From JBDRGX01 sp043817485 [NCBI: bacterium] (GTDB lineage Bacteria > JBDRGX01), in NCBI GenBank assembly GCA_043817485.1, contig JBDRGX010000018.1:1-19199 (forward strand): a stretch of DNA of 19,199 bases. Reading direction: 5' to 3'. Below are positions 5,177 through 19,199 of the stretch, in pieces. A model generated the notes under the pieces. It was not told where the DNA came from. It saw only the letters and a list, made by a program, of their open reading frames with translations, and ran no database searches. The stretch's first letter is position 1. Each line of letters begins with the position of its first letter. Position numbers and translations under genes: made by a program.

Positions 5177-6168
5177 ATGAATTTTATTCTACAAGAAAAA
5201 ATTTTTGAAAAAATGTCAGGGTTTATATTGACGATTATAATAGGGTTTATTGCTTTATGGATTGCCAAATTTCATAAAGCATTAGATCCTTTAGTGATAG
5301 GTATTGTATTAGGAATAGTAATAAGGACTTTCTTAGGAGAAAGGCATTACTTTTTATTAGGTTTTGATTTTGCTCCCAAATTCTTTATACCATTAGGCAT
5401 CATTTTTTATGGAATAAATTTGGAGTTTCATAAACTGGCTGCGATACCTGTTATTTTTTGGATTCAGTTAATAATAGGAATTATATTAATTTTTTTAATT
5501 GCTTTGTATTTAGGCAGAAGATTAGGTGCTGGAACCGCAATTCCTCTTTTAATAGCTACAGGAACTGCTATTTGCGGAGCTTCAGCTATTGCAATTGCTA
5601 CACCAATAGTAAAAGCAGATTCTGAAGATACCGGAGCAAGTTTGATAACTATTACCATCTTTGGACTGTTTGGTATGATGGTTTATCCCCTTGTTCTAAC
5701 CTGTTTTACACTTTCTAATACTGAATATGCATTTCTTTGCGGTACTACACTGCATCAGACCGGATTTGTGAAACTTGCTGCCAAAGCTTTGGGGGATGAT
5801 TGTTTGAAGATGGCCATGTCTTAAAAGTGGTAAGAACATTCTTGATAATACCTGTAATTGGATTTCTGTGCTGGTATATTGGAAAAAAAGAAGGGATAAA
5901 GAGAAAACCTATCTTGTATCAGATCCCCTGGTTTATGTGGGTTTTTGTTTTAGTAGGGCTTTTGGCTTCATTTGTTCCTACTTTTGGGCCATTGGCTAAA
6001 ACTTTAAAGCCATGGGCAGGCATATTTTTTACTATGGTTTTAACTAGCATTGGTCTAAAAGTTGACTTCAAGAGGATGCTCAATGTCGGCATATCACCAT
6101 TAATAATAGGTTTGGCTTGCTGGATTGCTGTAATTGGCGTATTTATTTTAGGAAAATTTATTTTTTAA
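5177..6168 (+). pseudogene. YeiH/UPF0324-type putative anion exporter, frameshifted
   Basis: Two overlapping frames together make one full-length YeiH-family (Cons_hypoth698) membrane protein of about 330 aa; members are often annotated as putative sulfate exporters. Part 1 (5177-5824, 215 aa) carries several hydrophobic helices, 'FFIPLGIIFYGINLEF', 'TGTAICGASAIAIATPIV' and 'LHQTGFVKLAAKAL'. Part 2 continues in the -1 frame with 'LKVVRTFLIIPVIGF' through 'LTSIGLKVDFKRML' to 6168. The frames must switch between 5800 (a TGA precedes it in frame 2) and the TAA at 5822-5824. One missing base near 5820 would rebuild 'MAMSLKVVRTF'. I see no slippery heptamer, so programmed shifting is unlikely; a real mutation or a sequencing error is more likely. 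RBS AAGGAG lies at 5165-5170. It heads the transport/signalling block. Confidence 0.85.
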
Positions 6169-6180
6169 AAAAAGGTTGGG

Positions 6181-7209
6181 ATGATGAAAAAATTATTAGT
6201 TTTTGGACTGTTAGGAATAATGATTTTTGGCTTTGTCGGATGTGAGCAAGAAGAAGCAAAGAGAATAGATCTTTCTAATAAAGAGGAAGCCAAAACTATT
6301 ATTGGGAAAAATAATAGTAATTCGCAGGTTGAGAAAAATACAGTGGTAATATCCGGTGCATGGGCACTCTATCCTATGGTAATCCGCTGGGCAGAGGAAT
6401 TCAAAAAAAATCATCCAAAGATAAAGTTTGATATTTCTTCAGGCGGTGCTGGCAAAGGAATGTCTGATGCTCTTGCCAATGTAGTTGATATTGGCATGGT
6501 TTCCCGAAAGGTGTTGTTAGAGGAGATTGATAAGAGAGCATATGCTATTGCTGTTACCAAAGATGCTGTAGTTCCTACCATTAATGCTGATAATCCTTAT
6601 CTGAATGCAATTCTCGAAGGAGGGATTAAAAAACAAACATTTATTGATATTTGGATTACTGGTAAAATTACTTCTTGGCAAAAGTTGTTACCTGAAATAA
6701 ATATTGCCAGAAATAATGATATTCACATTTATACCCGTTCTGATGATTGTGGCGCTGCTGAAACATGGGCTGAATATCTTAGTTTTTCACAAAAAGATTT
6801 AAGAGGAACAGGTGTTTACGGTGATCCAGGTGTAGCAGAAATAATAAAAAAAGATCCACTTGGAATAGGATTCAACAATATTAACTATGCTTATGATAGC
6901 AAAACGAAAATGCAAGTTAAGGGTCTGCGGGTGATACCGATTGATCTGAATGATAATGGTAAAATCGATCCAGAAGAAAACTTTTACAACCATCAAAACA
7001 ATTTAATTAAGGCCATCACCAATGGAATTTATCCTTCCCCGCCAGCTCGAGACTTATATTTTGTGACTTATGGCAAGCCAAAGCGGACAGCGGTCGTGGA
7101 ATTTATCAAATGGGTATTAACTGACGGTCAACAATATATAGCAGAATCCGGATATATTAATTTGTCTAAAAACAAGATTATGAAAGAACTGAAAAAAATC
7201 GAAAAATAA
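6181..7209 (+). CDS. PstS-like substrate-binding lipoprotein
   Basis: A 342-aa periplasmic or outer-leaflet binding protein of the PstS/PBP-like-2 type. A lipoprotein signal peptide ends in F-V-G-C with Cys21 as the lipidation site. The ligand-binding fold is suggested by 'VVISGAWALYPMVIRWAEE', 'SSGGAGKGMSDALANVVDIG' and 'YTRSDDCGAAETWAEYL', which match the segments that hold oxyanions in phosphate-binding proteins. Residues 255-266 (DLNDNGKIDPEE) fit an EF-hand calcium loop exactly. No permease or ATPase (PstC/A/B) is next to it; instead it lies 25 bp before a sensor kinase and 12 bp after the broken exporter. That makes a ligand-sensing partner role plausible, though phosphate as ligand is unproven. 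The start could be ATG 6181 or 6184; the upstream AAGG is only a weak Shine-Dalgarno. Confidence 0.85.
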   Translation: MMKKLLVFGLLGIMIFGFVGCEQEEAKRIDLSNKEEAKTIIGKNNSNSQVEKNTVVISGAWALYPMVIRWAEEFKKNHPKIKFDISSGGAGKGMSDALANVVDIGMVSRKVLLEEIDKRAYAIAVTKDAVVPTINADNPYLNAILEGGIKKQTFIDIWITGKITSWQKLLPEINIARNNDIHIYTRSDDCGAAETWAEYLSFSQKDLRGTGVYGDPGVAEIIKKDPLGIGFNNINYAYDSKTKMQVKGLRVIPIDLNDNGKIDPEENFYNHQNNLIKAITNGIYPSPPARDLYFVTYGKPKRTAVVEFIKWVLTDGQQYIAESGYINLSKNKIMKELKKIEK

Positions 7210-7233
7210 TAACTTTATAAAAAAAAATCAGAA

Positions 7234-9303
7234 ATGGTTAAAAGGAAAGAAATAAAAAAACAAATGGAAAAAAAAGTAAATTTAGGAAATAAAATTATTA
7301 CCACAATAATACTTATTGTTCTATTTTTTGGATTAATTATAACCTTTATTATCAATCAAATATTACCGCAAGCATTAAAAAATGAAACTAAAAAAATAGG
7401 TATAACAATAGCAAAAAATCTTGCTAACCGTAGCGTAATTCCCATATTAGAAAAAAATTTTGTAATACTTAAATATATGGTTGATGAGGAAAAAGAATCC
7501 AATAAAGATGTTGTCTACGCATTTGTTGTAAATTGGAAAAAAGAGGTCGTGGCTCACACTTTTGAAAAAGAATTTCCTGTGGAATTAAAAGATGCTAACC
7601 TTGTTTTTTTTAATCAAATTAATAATATCTGTTTATTAGATACAGAAAAAGGTTTTATTTATGATATCGCTGTTCCTATTATAATAAAGGATGAAAGATT
7701 TGGCATAGTAAGAATTGGAATAACAAATAAAAATATTCAAAAAACAATTAATACATTTCTGGGTATAATTATAGGAACAGTTGTCATCGCGATAATGATG
7801 AGTGTATTCGTTGGATTAATTCTAACTAAAACGATAGTAAAACCAATCAAAGAACTTCATCATGCTACTGAAGAAATACTAAAAGGAAATCTTGATATCA
7901 AAGTCAATGTTCCTCTTATTCCATGCTGGGAGATGAAAAAGTGTGAAAAAAAGGAGTGTCCTGCTTATGGGAAAGGTGATTCTCCTTGTTGGTATATTGT
8001 AGGGACAATGTGTGACAAAGTAGTACAAGGAACTTATGCGAAAAAAACAGGAGATTGTAAAAAATGCGAGGTTTATCAGGAATATTCAGGCGATGAAGTA
8101 CAGCAATTAGGAGAAACCTTCAATATAATGGTAGCTAATATTAAAAATGCAAAAACAGAACTTGAGAAAAAAATTATAGAACGAACAAATGAACTTCAAA
8201 AATCTGAAAACCGATTTAAAGATATTGCTTTTAGTTTGGTTGATTGGATATGGGAGGTTGATGAAAAAGGGGTGTACACATATTGCTCAATGAAAATTAA
8301 AGACATTTTGGGTTATACTGAAGAAGAGATTATCGGAAAAACCCCATTTGATTTAATGCCACCAATGGAAGCTGAAAAAATTGGAAAAATATTTTCTGAA
8401 ATAGTAAAAAACAAGAAACCAATCAAGGACTTAGAAAATTTAAACTTGTCCAAAGATGGTAGACAAGTCTATTTTCTTACAAATGGTGTTCCAATATTAG
8501 ATGAACGGGGAAATTTAAAGGGCTACCGCGGAGTGGATAAAGATATTACTGAACGAAAACAAGCAGAGGTCGAATTAAAAACACACACAGAAACTCTTGA
8601 AAGCGTAAATAAAGAACTGGATTCGTTTGTCTATACTGCTTCACATGACTTAAAAGAACCTTTAAGAGGAATAGATACCTTTAGTCAATTTATATTAGAA
8701 GATTATTCTGATAAATTAGATGATACTGGGAAGGACTATTTGAAACGAATTTCTGCGAGTATTAATAGAATGCAAAATTTAATTGATGACTTACTTGCTT
8801 TATCAAGAATTTCAAGAATAAAAAATCCCTATACTTCAGTTGATTCTGGCAATCTTGTTAAATCGGTAATTAAACGCTTAAAATATTTTGTTGAAGAAAA
8901 AAATGTAAAGATAGAAATAGATGATGAATTGCCATTTATTTTTTGTGATGAAGTAAAAATAAAAGAAGTTTTTTATAACCTTATTTTAAATGCTATTAAA
9001 TATAATAATAAATCAAATCCAGAAATTGAAATAGGAGTAGTTGTTAACAACCAAATACCAACAACCGAACATCAATTTTTTATTAGGGATAACGGTATTG
9101 GTATTCCCAAAGAACATTTTGAAACAATATTTCAGATTTTTAAACGACTTCATGCTCGTGATGAATATGGTGGTGGTACAGGAGCTGGACTTGCCATTGT
9201 CAAAAAAATTATAGATGAGCATAATGGAAAAATTTGGCTAAAATCAGAAGAAAGCAAAGGAACTACTTTCTTCTTTACAATATCTAAAAAGGAGAAAAAC
9301 TAA
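7234..9303 (+). CDS. Membrane sensor histidine kinase (Cache-like, HAMP, two-CW, PAS, HisKA, HATPase)
   Basis: A 689-aa sensor kinase. TM1 is near residues 19-43. An extracytoplasmic Cache-like domain carries 'YAFVVNWKKEVVAHTFEKEF'. TM2 is near 175-203, then HAMP. A cysteine-rich insert follows with CW pairs at 231-232 and 252-253 and Cys at 237, 242, 260, 275 and 278. A coiled segment, a PAS domain (about 327-446, ending DITERKQAE), HisKA with phospho-acceptor H471 in SHDLKEP, and HATPase (N-box around N582-N586, G1 DNGIGIP at D619, G2 near 646) complete it. The PAS-to-kinase part resembles phytochrome-type kinases that pair with Rcp1-like receivers, and such a receiver starts 2 nt after the stop codon. 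The start is uncertain: ATG 7234 has no clear RBS, and ATG 7264 has AGGAAAG about 14 nt upstream. The kinase core looks intact. Confidence 0.92.
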   Translation: MVKRKEIKKQMEKKVNLGNKIITTIILIVLFFGLIITFIINQILPQALKNETKKIGITIAKNLANRSVIPILEKNFVILKYMVDEEKESNKDVVYAFVVNWKKEVVAHTFEKEFPVELKDANLVFFNQINNICLLDTEKGFIYDIAVPIIIKDERFGIVRIGITNKNIQKTINTFLGIIIGTVVIAIMMSVFVGLILTKTIVKPIKELHHATEEILKGNLDIKVNVPLIPCWEMKKCEKKECPAYGKGDSPCWYIVGTMCDKVVQGTYAKKTGDCKKCEVYQEYSGDEVQQLGETFNIMVANIKNAKTELEKKIIERTNELQKSENRFKDIAFSLVDWIWEVDEKGVYTYCSMKIKDILGYTEEEIIGKTPFDLMPPMEAEKIGKIFSEIVKNKKPIKDLENLNLSKDGRQVYFLTNGVPILDERGNLKGYRGVDKDITERKQAEVELKTHTETLESVNKELDSFVYTASHDLKEPLRGIDTFSQFILEDYSDKLDDTGKDYLKRISASINRMQNLIDDLLALSRISRIKNPYTSVDSGNLVKSVIKRLKYFVEEKNVKIEIDDELPFIFCDEVKIKEVFYNLILNAIKYNNKSNPEIEIGVVVNNQIPTTEHQFFIRDNGIGIPKEHFETIFQIFKRLHARDEYGGGTGAGLAIVKKIIDEHNGKIWLKSEESKGTTFFFTISKKEKN

Positions 9304-9305
9304 AA

Positions 9306-9746
9306 ATGGAAAATACATTAAAACAGATTCCCATTTTAATTATTGATGATAATGAAGATGACATTTTTATCCTCCAAAGGGCATTTAAAAGGGTAAAAAT
9401 ATTAAATGAAATTTTTGTTGTTCGATCAGGAGAAGAAGCGGTTGATTTTATTTATCATCAAGGTAAATACGCTGATAAAAAATCACCTACTCCTGGACTT
9501 ATATTACTTGATATTTCAATGCCCAAAATTGATGGATTTGCTGTGCTTAAAAAACTTAAAGCCGATCCAATTTATAAAAAAATACCAGTCATAATGCTTA
9601 CGACTTCCAGTCGTGAAGAAGATATAGTAAGAAGTTATGAAGACGGTGCTTGTTCATATATAACTAAACCAACAGATTTCAATGAGTTTATGAAAGCAAT
9701 AGAGCGGTTTGAAGTCTATTGGACACTTGTAGTAAAGATACCGTAG
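9306..9746 (+). CDS. Rcp1-like single-domain response regulator
   Basis: A 146-aa receiver without an output domain. Acidic residues D14/D15 lie in 'LIIDDNEDD', the predicted phospho-acceptor is D69 in LLDISMPKIDG, the Thr/Ser switch is in 'IMLTTSS', and the conserved lysine is K121 in 'YITKP'. The long loop before D69 (HQGKYADKKSPTPGLI) is typical of Rcp1-type receivers serving phytochrome-like kinases. It starts 2 nt after the kinase stop, with AAAGGAG at 9288-9294 inside the kinase 3' end, so the two are probably cotranscribed and are likely cognate partners. With no output domain it probably passes phosphate on or acts by protein contact. All key receiver residues are present. Confidence 0.93.
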   Translation: MENTLKQIPILIIDDNEDDIFILQRAFKRVKILNEIFVVRSGEEAVDFIYHQGKYADKKSPTPGLILLDISMPKIDGFAVLKKLKADPIYKKIPVIMLTTSSREEDIVRSYEDGACSYITKPTDFNEFMKAIERFEVYWTLVVKIP

Positions 9747-9754
9747 AATAAAAA

Positions 9755-11332
9755 ATGAAAATGAATCTTAACTTCCAGAGCATAAAAGTTTTATTGATTG
9801 AAGATAATCCTGACGATATTCTCATTACAAAAAAGGTGTTTGCAGAAATCAAAAAAATGGATTTTGAACTGATTTGTGTGGATCGGCTTCAAACAGCGAT
9901 TGAATATCTTAATCAACAAAAAGTTGATGTAATTCTATTGGATCTCGGACTACCAGAAAGTCAAGGACTCGACACTTTCCACAAATTACATACTCAAATA
10001 CCAGAAGTACCAATTGTTGTATTAAGCGGTTTTGATGATATAGATACCGCATTAAAGGCCATCTATGAAGGTGCCCAAGATTATCTGATTAAGCAAACTT
10101 ATAACTCTAATGCAATGGTACGAATTATACGATATGCTATGGAACGCTACCAAATATTAAAGGAATTAGACCAGAAAAACAAGGAATTAAAAAAACTTGA
10201 TGAAATGAAAGATGAGTTTGTTTTAATGGTCTCTCATGAACTTAGAACCCCTTTAGCAATTATGAAAACATATATTAACATTCTTTTGGATGAAATTCAG
10301 GGTAAAATAAATGACCAACAGAAAATTTTTTTAACTATAGTTTATAATAATATTGGTCGCCTAACTGGTGTAATCAATGATTTATTGGATATGAACAAAA
10401 TTAATATAGGTAAAATGAAAATTTTTAAATCAAACATGAATCTTGCCAAACAGATAAAACAGGTAGTTAACTTTTTTGAAATTGAAACCATGGCTAAAAA
10501 CATTACGCTAAAGCTAGAAATTCCCACCAACTTAGCCGAAGTATTTGCTGATGAAGAAAGAATAGTTCAGGTTCTAATTAATATTATAGGAAATGCGATT
10601 AAATTTACACATAAAGGAGGTAAAATAGTTATTCAAGCCTGCCAAAAAGATAAATTCATAGAAGTAAGCATCTTGAATACAGGAGATGTAATTGCGACTA
10701 AAGATTTGGAAAGAATTTTTGAACCCTTTAATCAAGGGAATCAAACCACTGACATAAGTATCAAAGGCACTGGTTTAGGGCTTACGATTACTAAAAAAAT
10801 AATTGAACTTCACCAGGGGAAAATTTGGGCAGAAAATATATTCATTCCTGAAGGTAAAGGTTGTAAATTTAATTTCCTTTTACCAAAATTTGAAAGAAAG
10901 GTAGTTTTTCGAGAAGGTTTATCTTGTGCGATTAAAGAAGCCAGAGAAACAAGGGCATCACTCTGTTTATATCTTATTGGTATAAAAGATTTTGCATCCT
11001 TGCAAGAACTTGCAAGTTCAGAAGAGATTCAATTTTTTTTGGAAAAAATAATGAATAAAATTAAAAACACTTTCAGAAACGCTGATATTATTATTCCTTA
11101 TGAAAAAGAAGGAATAATGGCTTTACTAACTGATGGTAAAAAAGAAATGGTATTTTTGTTAATAGAGCGACTAAACAAATTTATTAGTGATGATGAATTT
11201 TTTTTATCAGATAAATCATTTAAGGTCTTATTGAATTATGGTATATCTTGTTTTCCAGAAGAGGCTGATGAAGAAAATGAATTGCTTATAAAGCTTGAAA
11301 AAAGCTGGGAAAAAGAAAAGAAAAATGTTTGA
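9755..11332 (+). CDS. REC-HisKA-HATPase hybrid with degenerate G1 box and degenerate GGDEF tail
   Basis: A 525-aa soluble hybrid protein. The receiver (about 9-130) has D17, acceptor D63 in LLDLGLP and K113. HisKA carries H161 in 'VSHELRTPLA'. In HATPase the N-box is present (N280) and G2 is intact (GTGLGLTI), but the G1 box, usually DxGxG, reads NTGDVIA, with Asn308 replacing the adenine-contacting Asp. From about residue 370 the tail follows the layout of a GGDEF domain: a 'SLCLYLIGIKDF' strand, then 'NTFRNADIIIPYEKEG' where RxGGDEF should be (449-453), then 'LLNYGISCFPEEADEE'. The catalytic motif is lost. It begins 8 bp after the receiver gene and overlaps the next gene by 8 bp. The kinase may be weak or inactive; receiving phosphate at D63 and modulating the next cyclase is plausible but inferred. 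Confidence 0.85.
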   Translation: MKMNLNFQSIKVLLIEDNPDDILITKKVFAEIKKMDFELICVDRLQTAIEYLNQQKVDVILLDLGLPESQGLDTFHKLHTQIPEVPIVVLSGFDDIDTALKAIYEGAQDYLIKQTYNSNAMVRIIRYAMERYQILKELDQKNKELKKLDEMKDEFVLMVSHELRTPLAIMKTYINILLDEIQGKINDQQKIFLTIVYNNIGRLTGVINDLLDMNKINIGKMKIFKSNMNLAKQIKQVVNFFEIETMAKNITLKLEIPTNLAEVFADEERIVQVLINIIGNAIKFTHKGGKIVIQACQKDKFIEVSILNTGDVIATKDLERIFEPFNQGNQTTDISIKGTGLGLTITKKIIELHQGKIWAENIFIPEGKGCKFNFLLPKFERKVVFREGLSCAIKEARETRASLCLYLIGIKDFASLQELASSEEIQFFLEKIMNKIKNTFRNADIIIPYEKEGIMALLTDGKKEMVFLLIERLNKFISDDEFFLSDKSFKVLLNYGISCFPEEADEENELLIKLEKSWEKEKKNV

Positions 11333-12188
11333 TAAAATTCTGATAATTGATGATGAAGAAGAAATGTTGAACGCCATAGAAATAATATTATCATCTGCTG
11401 ACTATGAAACTTTTAGTGTTTCAAACGGAAAAGAGGTGTTTGAAAAAGTAAAAAAGATAATTCCTGATTTAATTCTTCTTGATATTATGATGCCTAATAT
11501 GGATGGGTTTATGATAAAATCTCAGTTAAATGAAGAGCTATCTACTGCTAATATCCCTGTGATATTTTTAACTGCCAGAGATAAAACAACAGATAAAGTA
11601 AAAGGATTTCAATATGGAGTTGATGATTATATAACAAAACCGTTTGATTCAAAAGAACTTTTGGCTCGAATTGATTCTATTTTAAGTCGTAGAAAAATAT
11701 ATGAAAAAATATCTATGACCGATGGACTCACAGGTCTTTATAATTTACATTTTTTTAAAAAGCAAATTACTATATTTTTTAATATCGCTAAAAGATACAA
11801 AAAGAAATTTTCATTAGTCATAATTGATATTGATAAATTTAAAACCATAAACGATACACATGGACATATGGTCGGAGATCAAGTGTTAAAAAAAACTGCA
11901 ATTTTAATGAAAGAAACATTAAGAAAATCCGATATAATTACAAGATATGGTGGAGATGAATTTGCTATTATTTTACCCGAATGCGATGAAAACTGTGTCG
12001 ATGAATTTATAAGAACTTTAAGAAAAAAAATCAAAGATGAATCATATGTTTTAAAAGGAAATGAAATAAAAATATTGTTTTCTATAAGTATTGGTGTTGC
12101 AACATATAGAGAAGATTTTATAGATGAAACTCAAATATTTGAATTAGCAGATAAAAATATGTATAAAGATAAAAAAGTAGTAAAATAA
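11325..12188 (+). CDS. Response regulator diguanylate cyclase (REC-GGDEF, PleD-like)
   Basis: A 287-aa protein predicted to make c-di-GMP from two GTP when its receiver is phosphorylated. The receiver carries 'ILIIDDEEE', acceptor D53 in LLDIMMPNMDG, 'FLTARD' and 'YITKPF'. The cyclase follows after 'SMTDGLTGLYNLHFF', with 'IIDIDKFKTINDTHGH' and an intact GGDEF at 209-213. An RxxD inhibitory site (RKSD, 200-203) sits at the usual place before it, so product feedback control is expected. The start is placed at ATG 11325, immediately before the receiver fold; the frame is open from a TTG at 11295, but that would add a poor lysine-rich leader. It overlaps the hybrid kinase gene by 8 bp, which suggests translational coupling. 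It is the only recognisable output of the signalling block. Confidence 0.93.
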   Translation: MFDKILIIDDEEEMLNAIEIILSSADYETFSVSNGKEVFEKVKKIIPDLILLDIMMPNMDGFMIKSQLNEELSTANIPVIFLTARDKTTDKVKGFQYGVDDYITKPFDSKELLARIDSILSRRKIYEKISMTDGLTGLYNLHFFKKQITIFFNIAKRYKKKFSLVIIDIDKFKTINDTHGHMVGDQVLKKTAILMKETLRKSDIITRYGGDEFAIILPECDENCVDEFIRTLRKKIKDESYVLKGNEIKILFSISIGVATYREDFIDETQIFELADKNMYKDKKVVK

Positions 12189-16114: not shown

Positions 16115-17041
16115 TTATTTAAACATTTCTTTAATTGCACCCCAAGATTTATTTTCTATAGAAGTAGGAGAAGTTATAGAAAAATTAACTTCATCAATTA
16201 AAACTGTTCCTTTTACAGCATCAGCAAAACCAATACAAAATTCAGTTACAAGTAAAGTAAATTTGTCACCAAGTTTTAATGGATCATCTATTTGTTGACC
16301 TAATTGAGAAATATCAAATTTTGCTACATCTGATAAATAAGGAGAAGAACCAATTAAATTACTTCTATCTCTCATTTTAAAAGACATTCCATTTGTTAAT
16401 GGAATACTTACTAACTGCCATTGTCCAGCAGCAGGTAATATATAAGAAACTACATTACCTGGAACTCCCAATTGTCCTAATGTACAAGAATAAGTAGTTT
16501 GTCGTCTATAATGAGGTGAATCTTTTTGGTAATCTGCATCATTTGGATTTTTAGCAGTAACAGTTGTTGTAGTTCCAGAAGTTTTTACTTCAATTCCTAC
16601 ACCATGTTCATATTTTTTTCCTATAACAAGACCTATCCCCATAGTAGCAACATCTGTTTGAAGAATACTTTCGGGATAATTAATATATAAATTTAAATAT
16701 TTTGCACCATTAGATTCAGAAATATATATTCCTCCATTAAGAGTATTAGCTGGATCAAATTCATCTTTTAAAGTATCATTATCAATCCAATAAAAACTCA
16801 TTCTGTTATTTTGTCCACTTAAATTTAATTTTAATGCTTGATTAGTTCCATTTGCTCCTGGAGTTTGTATCTCAGCATTTATCGTATCATTAGCCAATGG
16901 CGTATAATCAAAATCACCAGTACCATCCCAATATTTCCATTGGCTATTAATTCCTGTATCAAAATTGTCTAATTTATCTGCTGCTTGAGAAAAATTAATA
17001 AACAAAAATAAAATTAATCCTAAAATAAAATTTGTTTTCAT
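16115..17041 (-). CDS. Secreted beta-sandwich protein, CBM11/CIA30-like
   Basis: A 308-aa exported protein of unknown function. A clear Sec signal peptide is cleaved after SQA (about residue 20). The mature part begins 'DKLDNFDTGINSQWKYWDG' and ends with 'FADAVKGTVLIDEVNFSITS'. This opening (an Asp-Phe-[DE] strand followed by an aromatic-rich turn) and closing (G-x-hydrophobic-IDEVxF) are typical of galactose-binding-like or CBM11/CIA30 jelly-roll domains, so carbohydrate or surface binding is suggested without certainty. The last residues, 'SIENKSWGAIKEMFK', follow a linker after the fold and could be a sorting or interaction tail. AAGGAGG lies at 17057-17051, 9 nt before the ATG, which is the strongest RBS in the window and suggests high expression. 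It lies downstream of the phosphatase/CBM9 gene on the same strand. Confidence 0.75.
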   Translation of the reverse strand: MKTNFILGLILFLFINFSQAADKLDNFDTGINSQWKYWDGTGDFDYTPLANDTINAEIQTPGANGTNQALKLNLSGQNNRMSFYWIDNDTLKDEFDPANTLNGGIYISESNGAKYLNLYINYPESILQTDVATMGIGLVIGKKYEHGVGIEVKTSGTTTTVTAKNPNDADYQKDSPHYRRQTTYSCTLGQLGVPGNVVSYILPAAGQWQLVSIPLTNGMSFKMRDRSNLIGSSPYLSDVAKFDISQLGQQIDDPLKLGDKFTLLVTEFCIGFADAVKGTVLIDEVNFSITSPTSIENKSWGAIKEMFK

Positions 17042-17184: not shown

Positions 17185-19199
17185 TTATTCAAAGATTAAT
17201 TCTCCTAATAAAGATGCTTGTTCTGTATGAGTATAACTTGGAGACCATTGTGTATAAACATTTTGAGGGTTATTATTTCTGCTTATATTAAAATTCCATA
17301 TTTCCCCATTTTGAGGAGTAGTAGTTTCTAAATCTTTCAAAGGAATAACAAATTCTATTGACCAACCAAGTTCATTAATAACTCCATAAGATTGCCATTT
17401 ACCATTCCATTCTGTATTACTATTTTTGCTATCAAATTGAACACCTAAACAATTTGCAATAAATTGAAAATTTTTATCTGAAGAAAAATTTATTAATACT
17501 TCTATACAATCATCTTTCCAAACTCTTTCATCATCTTTCCCAAGAGCATTATGAAAAAGTTTTTCTACATCACTTTCTTCGCAATCTACTCCTATATAAA
17601 GATTTTCATCATCATAAGTAATAAAAAAAGCAGTTCTTTTTTTATTTAAAAAATTTCCAGTAATTGCTACAAAATCTGTTTGAGGTTTTTTTTCTGTCCA
17701 TAGATTTTCATTTAAAAAACCATCTAATTGAATTTTTTCTTTTGTTTTAGAACAAAAAAATTGTTTTCTAATTTGTAATGAATTTTCAACTTTTGAAGTA
17801 ATTTTTTCATGAGAAATAGAAGTTTGCATTATAGGAGTAGGATATAAATAAGCAGAAAGAATGTTTACTTGAAATTCTTTTTCAAAAGGTTGTTCTTTTT
17901 TTATTTCAAAATCAACTTTTTGAGGATCAATAGAATAATTTTTATCTGTTTTCCAAAAAATTTGACCTTTACAAATTTCTGAGAAATCAGTGTTTATTTT
18001 TATTTTTATTTTTTGTTCTTTTTTATCAAAATTTAAAGAAGGAATTTTAATTTGAGGTCTTATTAAATCTATTTTTTCAATATTAAATTGAGTCATAGAT
18101 GAAAGTAAATATTTTTGTTTAAACCAAGAATTTTTTTTATCTATTGTAAAAATATCAAATACATTTTTATTAATATCAATTGCTTTTAGAGTTAATTGAT
18201 TTTTTTGAATAGAAATGAAACAATAATGAGGTATATTTTTAAATAATCGTGTCCAAACAGATTGAGATTTTTTATGAAAAAAATTTTCATCTCCATTTGC
18301 TGTAGTAACAAAAGTAGTTGCATATTTATCATCAAAATTACCTGCTCTAATAGGAAAACTACATTCGTAAAAATGATTTTTTCCACTAAAAACTAAATCT
18401 ATTCCATATTGATAAAATAAATGACAAAGATTATTTCTAATTTTTAAATTTGAATTTTTAGAAGAAAAAGTAAAAGGAGAATGATGAAAAAAAACAATTT
18501 TCCATTTAAAATTTATAGATTGTTTTAAATCTTGTTCTAACCATTGAAATTCTGGACTTTCTTTTTCCCATTCAGAATTAGAATCTAATGCAATAAAATG
18601 AGCATTACCATAATTAAAAGAGTAACCTTTTTCATCAAAAGGAAAATTAAAATAATCAGAATAAAAAGAATTTTTTTCTTTTTCAAGATTTCCAGGACAA
18701 GTAAAAATTGGTTTTTCTTTAATAATATTTTTCAAAGGATTAAAAAATTGATTTTTTAAAGAATTTTCATTTTCATAAGAAGATAAATTTCCAGTATGAA
18801 GAATAAAAAAAATTTTTTGTTCTTTAAAAAGATCTATTAAACAAGAATGAATTTCATTTTCAAGAGTTTCTCCATAAACAACAAATGAAAAAAAATTACA
18901 TTTTGATGAAGGAGTTTTAAAAGTATTTATTTCTAAATCTTTTTTTTGAGTTATTATTTTATAACAATAAGTTGTATTTTCTTTTAAATTTGAAATTTTG
19001 ATTTGGTGAAAAATATTTTCTTTTTCTTCTACAATTTCTATTGGTTTTGGTTTTTTTAAAAAATTGTTTTTAGAAAAATAAAGAATTTTTCCTTTTGTTT
19101 TTATATTTGTTTGCCATTTAATAATTACTTCATTTGAAGTAATATTTTGTAAATATGGCCCAATTATAATATTTTCATTAGATAAAGATATTTTTAAAA
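17185..19199 (-). CDS. Purple-acid-phosphatase-like protein with lost metal ligands, fused to CBM9 (5' end outside window)
   Basis: The frame is open from the window edge (first full codon 19197-19195) to 17185, about 671 codons; the true start lies beyond the window. First comes a purple-acid-phosphatase N-terminal FnIII-like domain ('IIIGPYLQNITSNEVIIKWQ', 'HQIKISNLKENTTYCYKI'). A calcineurin-like metallophosphatase fold follows, but the ligand motifs are changed: GD is GE (18873-18868), the second GD is GN in HTGNLSSY (18792-18787), GNH is GNL (18693-18685) and GHxH is GKNH (K at 18381). Only the VxxH histidine (18486) and the last His remain. The C-terminal 190 residues are a CBM9/DOMON-like domain: 'IQLDGFLNENLWTEK', 'FFITYDDENLYIGVDC', 'VWKDDCIEVLINF', 'WSIEFVIPLKDL'. 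A catalytically dead binding protein is likely. Composition is host-like. Export cannot be judged without the N-terminus. Confidence 0.85.
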   Translation of the reverse strand, partial: LKISLSNENIIIGPYLQNITSNEVIIKWQTNIKTKGKILYFSKNNFLKKPKPIEIVEEKENIFHQIKISNLKENTTYCYKIITQKKDLEINTFKTPSSKCNFFSFVVYGETLENEIHSCLIDLFKEQKIFFILHTGNLSSYENENSLKNQFFNPLKNIIKEKPIFTCPGNLEKEKNSFYSDYFNFPFDEKGYSFNYGNAHFIALDSNSEWEKESPEFQWLEQDLKQSINFKWKIVFFHHSPFTFSSKNSNLKIRNNLCHLFYQYGIDLVFSGKNHFYECSFPIRAGNFDDKYATTFVTTANGDENFFHKKSQSVWTRLFKNIPHYCFISIQKNQLTLKAIDINKNVFDIFTIDKKNSWFKQKYLLSSMTQFNIEKIDLIRPQIKIPSLNFDKKEQKIKIKINTDFSEICKGQIFWKTDKNYSIDPQKVDFEIKKEQPFEKEFQVNILSAYLYPTPIMQTSISHEKITSKVENSLQIRKQFFCSKTKEKIQLDGFLNENLWTEKKPQTDFVAITGNFLNKKRTAFFITYDDENLYIGVDCEESDVEKLFHNALGKDDERVWKDDCIEVLINFSSDKNFQFIANCLGVQFDSKNSNTEWNGKWQSYGVINELGWSIEFVIPLKDLETTTPQNGEIWNFNISRNNNPQNVYTQWSPSYTHTEQASLLGELIFE

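Follow-up and report, generated by a model that had tools for sequence, protein, structure and literature searches.

The gene at the right end of the window, by which is meant the whole 19,199-nucleotide stretch of contig JBDRGX010000018.1 analyzed here, raises the question of what role is left to a protein that is organized like a purple acid phosphatase (PAP), carries a CBM9 carbohydrate-binding module, and has substitutions in four of its five catalytic motifs. Its sequence and a structure model point to a product that is probably a maintained pseudo-phosphatase, in which a disarmed PAP fold and the CBM9 would serve a binding or scaffold role. The frame contains no stop codons and its 5' end runs past the window, placing the start codon and any signal peptide outside it. 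The initial annotation had described a well-kept PAP architecture fused to a CBM9, and both parts are borne out, the latter at family level: the FnIII-like, Metallophos, and CBM9_1 domains all score above their Pfam cut-offs (Table 1), and the FFHHSPF signature lies at residues 236 to 242. CBM9_1 scores 34.6 bits when the domain is searched alone, and the related family CBM9_2 falls below its cut-off (22.6 against 25 bits) with the whole window protein. There are no NCBIfam matches to the window protein at E 0.01, and no Pfam matches to the stretch joining the PAP and CBM9 parts (searched as residues 356 to 482).

Table 1. Coordinates of the putative pseudo-phosphatase gene, its domains and motif residues, and the adjacent gene
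Feature	Position	Strand	Basis
Putative pseudo-phosphatase with CBM9, open frame, 670 codons	17185..19197	-	ORF
FnIII-like PAP N-terminal domain, Pur_ac_phosph_N (PF16656), residues 16-95	18913..19152	-	Pfam, 36.5 bits (cut-off 30)
Metallophos (PF00149), residues 122-272	18382..18834	-	Pfam, 43 bits (cut-off 21.5)
Motif I, Asp to Glu110	18868..18870	-	Motif alignment
Motif II, Asp to Asn137	18787..18789	-	Motif alignment
Motif III, Asn170 retained, His to Leu171	18685..18690	-	Motif alignment
Motif IV, His238 retained	18484..18486	-	Motif alignment
Motif V, GHxH as G-K273-N-H275, first His gone, second retained	18373..18381	-	Motif alignment
PAP-CBM9 link, residues 360-479	17761..18120	-	No Pfam match; part from residue 390 common to L215
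CBM9_1, residues 492-645	17263..17724	-	Pfam, 30.8 bits (cut-off 23.4)
Trp560, aligned to Trp71 of TmCBM9-2 via W-x-x-D-x-[IV]-E	17518..17520	-	Profile alignment
Downstream gene, 308 aa, hydrophobic N terminus, possible partner	16115..17041	-	ORF

The five PAP motifs, as listed in an excerpt of PMC12999176, read GE, GNLSSY, GNLE, FFHHSPF, and GKNH in the window protein. Seven positions were scored, at which the usual D-D-N-H-H-H-H is replaced by E110, N137, N170, L171, H238, K273, and H275; that is, GD becomes GE in motif I, GD becomes GN in motif II, GNH becomes GNL in motif III, and GHxH becomes GKxH in motif V, with N170, H238, and H275 unchanged. The motif IV ligand is present whichever of His238 and His239 serves. 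The metal ligands of PAPs are two Asp, an Asn, three His, and one Tyr, the last of which (in GDxxY) was left out of the scoring, being displaced by one residue here and not general among the aligned relatives. The motif II Asp (here Asn137) is presumably the bridging ligand, and the His of GNH (here Leu171) is taken to act in catalysis and not in metal binding; on that count, three scored ligands and one catalytic residue are altered. The initial annotation had counted four substituted metal ligands, and although all four substitutions (D to E, D to N, H to L, and H to K) are real, the ligands among them are thus three.

Nine relatives on viral contigs keep the usual residue at all four changed columns (8 of 8 at motif I, which lies before the start of one row). 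Further changes in the window protein at positions kept in at least 80% of intact relatives are Q216E, P240S, G293A, G300A, and G303D, mostly within or adjoining motif IV and in the loops after motif V, with R279C as an additional conserved-position change in an earlier, smaller set of relatives; the five losses fit, without proving, a pocket that is no longer catalytic. Sequence comparison, with the viral-contig relatives and in the motif census described below, strongly supports loss of the canonical two-metal site, and canonical catalysis has very probably gone with it.

The census drew on a pool of all loci from L081 to L239 (n = 159), comprising relatives of the window protein, viral contigs, and loci retrieved with PF16656, L081, and L084 queries; the genome sets searched overlap, with 1,992 genomes counted in total, and one row matching the PAP part (G393:C12:288763-289128) was left out. 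There are 131 frames matching at E 1e-5, from which 14 near-duplicates (90% identity) were removed; 117 were aligned, two gapped ones were set aside, and 115 were scored. Most of these relatives lose none of the seven positions (82), with 20 losing one, three each losing two, three, and four, one losing six, and three losing all seven, and the heavy losses are over-counted because L084 relatives were sought for their degeneracy. Smaller earlier passes gave similar tallies of relatives intact at all seven positions (51/70 and 59/82). Both Asp residues are lost in only four of the 115, each with six or seven losses, these being L158 (which is the L081 gene) and three members of the L084 family. 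The E-N-N-L-H-K-H pattern of the window protein is found in none of the 115.

The nearest relatives by score, at 31 to 32% identity, are L101, L196, and L174 from the phylum of G001, a Chloroflexi-labelled MAG, and they lose one, one, and none of the positions, respectively. Searches of genome contigs, plasmids, phages, and viral contigs reveal no close orthologue of the window protein: the genome-contig search with the protein and the viral-contig searches with single proteins returned no match, and the plasmid and phage matches are distant, none covering 80% of the query (the top-ranked have 26.8% and 24.2% identity). Among the relatives there are several partial departures from the usual motifs. 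GHxH reads AHxT, with the other positions intact, in L101, L102, L103, and L133, from four genomes of one class of 41. L177, L178, and L104, from the phylum of G001, keep both Asp and have an altered GNH (both residues in L177 and L178, the His alone in L104), together with Gln for the motif IV His and Asn for the first His of GHxH. L212 has lost four positions, with Glu for the motif I Asp, and L206 and L235 have lost two and three, respectively. A MAG labelled Candidatus ainarchaeum codes for a PAP-like protein (L081:1294-2646) with six of the seven positions lost; its PAP part has no relative among 245 sampled genomes of its phylum, other matches falling within L081 residues 4 to 120.

A single relative is informative as to where the gene may have come from. 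L215 (L215:992-2899, in genome G033 from the phylum of G014) is organized as phosphatase, linker, and CBM9, and is colinear with residues 145 to 669 of the window protein at 22% identity (E 3.6e-24), sharing its stretch from residue 390 onward. As analyzed, it comprises 636 residues of a 734-residue frame, with Metallophos at 76 to 257 and CBM9_1 at 446 to 606, and there is no PF16656 match at E 0.01 in the 636 residues scanned. All seven positions are intact (D-D-N-H-H-H-H), and L215 is thus an apparently working enzyme, judged by its motifs. Of the 131 phosphatase frames, L215 alone has a further match, at E 1e-5, to the CBM9 part of the window protein. The notion that the phosphatase-CBM9 layout is unique to the window gene was dropped, since L215 has the same layout. 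With only 22% identity, L215 is distantly related to the window protein and does not qualify as an orthologue. The layout does occur with a site that seems functional, and the simplest view of the window gene is as a relative of such an enzyme that has been disarmed; it may derive from a CBM9-carrying phosphatase like L215.

The structure prediction that the initial annotation had recommended yields a PAP fold. The model, for which the window protein was aligned with the nine viral-contig relatives, has a mean pLDDT of 52.4; of the first 27 blocks of ten residues, 25 score between 60 and 88, residues 356 to 670 fall below 50, and the PAP fold extends to approximately residue 359. Its top Foldseek matches are the PAPs of wheat, lupin, and kidney bean, with E values down to 1.7e-17, and VPS29 is also among the fold matches. 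VIA-align 2 superimposes the model on kidney-bean PAP (4DHL) with a Z score of 25.6 and an rmsd of 5.2 over 333 residues, and on GAP50 (3TGH) with a Z score of 21.6 and an rmsd of 3.3 over 233 residues. A phmmer search with the window protein also retrieves a PAP (6GJA, E 1.9e-9). The linker and CBM9, modelled from the single sequence, have a mean pLDDT of 34, which is too poor to judge their fold.

For the CBM9, a profile of the module and six relatives finds TmCBM9-2 (1I82) with an E value of 2e-4. Both of the two relatives scanned in Pfam, among these six, carry DUF5916. The sugar clamp of TmCBM9-2 is formed by Trp71 and Trp175, according to an excerpt of PMC8280721, and W560-K-D-D-C-I-E of the window protein aligns with W-E-Q-D-S-V-E, the stretch that contains Trp71. 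None of the six relatives has a Trp in the Trp560 column, and L215 has Phe there. The Trp175 column is non-aromatic in the window protein by reading of the alignment, with a Tyr nearby. Sugar binding by this module would be plausible, and the same excerpt of PMC8280721 includes a CBM9 without the expected residues and of unclear role, which by analogy is a caution on a glycan-binding reading.

These features suggest how the protein could have arisen and how it could act. A PAP-type metallophosphoesterase domain, in a CBM9-carrying phosphatase of the L215 kind, would have lost its two-metal site and catalytic His, and the disarmed domain would have been retained, as a scaffold or a surface for binding, between the FnIII-like domain and the C-terminal CBM9. 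The CBM9 would hold a glycan, with Trp560 stacking on the sugar, and the PAP fold would act as a structural or ligand-holding module; we infer that the protein is probably exported, its N terminus lying outside the window. A more specific version, which we regard as a long shot, is that the dead pocket is a phosphate- or phosphoglycan-binding site in which Lys273 substitutes for the metal charge and which acts together with the CBM9, making the protein a bacterial lectin derived from a CBM9-carrying phosphatase.

Whether the gene is under selection is addressed in part by its coding statistics. The initial annotation took the intact, long frame to argue for selection, and in keeping with this there are no in-frame stops, against a mean of 55.9 and a minimum of 33 when this DNA is simulated 500 times with a first-order Markov model. 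The codon-bias score is 0.525, compared with 0.516 for PurL and 0.508 for the downstream gene, both of which are in the reference (the other scored genes but one), and it remains within 0.45 to 0.60 over the length of the gene, which has a third-position GC of 5%. An antisense frame scores 0.479 and has 50 stops, so codon bias alone is no proof of coding. The argument for selection does not extend to the distribution of the losses, which are not significantly clustered at the active site in either set of relatives (p 0.07 to 0.68). In the larger set, three of the seven catalytic positions are kept, compared with 11 of 16 other conserved positions at an 80% threshold (p 0.36), 13 of 20 at 75% (p 0.39), and 7 of 7 at 90% (p 0.07); in the earlier set, three thresholds give p values of 0.38, 0.36, and 0.61, and the 19 close relatives give 0.68.

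Continued activity as a hydrolase, using one metal or an altered site, is an unlikely alternative that draws on the residues still in place: Glu110, Asn170, His238, and His275 are potential ligands that could still hold a metal, and Lys273 could supply the charge of a missing one. Relatives with a single loss are also common, including those with AHxT, the Asp-to-Glu change at motif I recurs in L212 (itself with four positions lost), and L215 shows that the layout exists with an intact site. The absence of both Asp residues argues against it, as this is otherwise confined, among the 115 scored relatives, to those with six or seven losses, and the catalytic His is gone too.

A gene only recently inactivated and heading to loss would also be consistent with the lack of a close orthologue in the genome, plasmid, phage, and viral searches and with losses that show no significant restriction to the active site, and gene breakage or base errors are seen in this window, where a YeiH-type gene is split over two frames. 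It is nonetheless doubtful, as 670 codons are stop-free with codon bias even along the frame, and the four motif codons differ from the usual ones by at least five base changes, which, with the further conserved changes, would have needed time. Sequencing or assembly errors in an ordinary phosphatase are hardly credible, even though another gene shows a shift of frame close to a run of G (5791-5795). They would require five or more separate substitutions falling precisely on the four motif positions, one codon needing two bases, with the frame left unbroken. The initial annotation named intact homologues together with such errors as a case that would overturn it; intact homologues are indeed the rule, L215 with its identical layout among them, and the four codons give no sign of error. 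A maintained pseudo-phosphatase is the preferred reading.

The downstream gene has no Pfam or NCBIfam family and no plasmid match, and no terminator-like site was found between it and the window gene; there are no tRNA genes in the window. The YeiH-type transporter gene (5177-6168) is split near the G run, which is either real or an assembly error, and the scored genes in 5177-12188 have third-position GC of 15 to 28%, compared with 5 to 8% in the other scored window genes, which may reflect recent acquisition. PurL (28-2979) has an N-terminal part with PurS-like matches and is 55 to 61% identical to MAG proteins of several phyla among the best 80 of 569 matches. A DnaB search gave distant matches (23 to 28% identity) in 30 of 37 genomes, and the class of G051 comprises two genomes only.

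A separate PAP-like family offers a parallel. L084, from a Deltaproteobacteria-labelled MAG, codes for a PAP-like domain (Metallophos 17.1 bits, below the cut-off of 21.5) with all seven residues gone, followed by Glyco_transf_4 and Glycos_transf_1. It has relatives at 88% and 43% identity in two other genomes of its 155-genome class, neither of which has any of the seven residues, and the 43% relative carries a glycosyltransferase by sequence reading; L219 in G202 has likewise lost all seven and has Glyco_transf_4. All seven are thus lost in four genomes (L084, L187, L188, and L219), the glycosyltransferase being assigned from Pfam matches in L084 and L219, and in L188 from a reading of the sequence. 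The loss of all seven across these divergences indicates that at least one site-less bacterial PAP-like domain is maintained over large divergence. The L084 family is not orthologous to the window protein, and together they suggest that bacteria also keep PAP-like folds without catalytic residues, attached to carbohydrate modules. Labelling genes of this type as phosphatases would be misleading, and a count of the motif residues offers an easy screen for them.

To our knowledge, most described pseudo-phosphatases with a metallophosphoesterase fold are eukaryotic, and no paper on a PAP pseudoenzyme or on bacterial metallophosphoesterase pseudoenzymes was found in the literature searched, which omits most subscription papers. 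The window protein shares the FnIII and metallophosphoesterase arrangement and the fold of plant-type PAPs (1KBP, 4DHL, and wheat phytase 6GIT), but with motifs I, II, III, and V substituted and a CBM9 added. The profile of its CBM9 matches TmCBM9-2, with the Trp71 motif in common, but the equivalent of Trp175 is not kept by reading, and the module is attached to a phosphatase fold whereas that of TmCBM9-2 belongs to a Thermotoga xylanase. The B-subunits of eukaryotic DNA polymerases and VPS29 have metallophosphoesterase folds like the window protein; both are intracellular, belong to other subfamilies, and have no CBM9, and VPS29 has a scaffold role. In the parts of the literature available, the B-subunits are a precedent for a non-enzymatic metallophosphoesterase fold. 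GAP50 of Plasmodium, which the model also matches, has a PAP fold described as a membrane anchor, but it is eukaryotic and is also termed a fully active unit or an acid phosphatase in excerpts of PMC4256932 and PMC8949495. By analogy, GAP50 is thus a precedent for a non-catalytic role and not a clean pseudoenzyme, and the window protein is best viewed as a variant of known non-catalytic metallophosphoesterase folds, with GAP50 and the polymerase B-subunits as its likely precedents.
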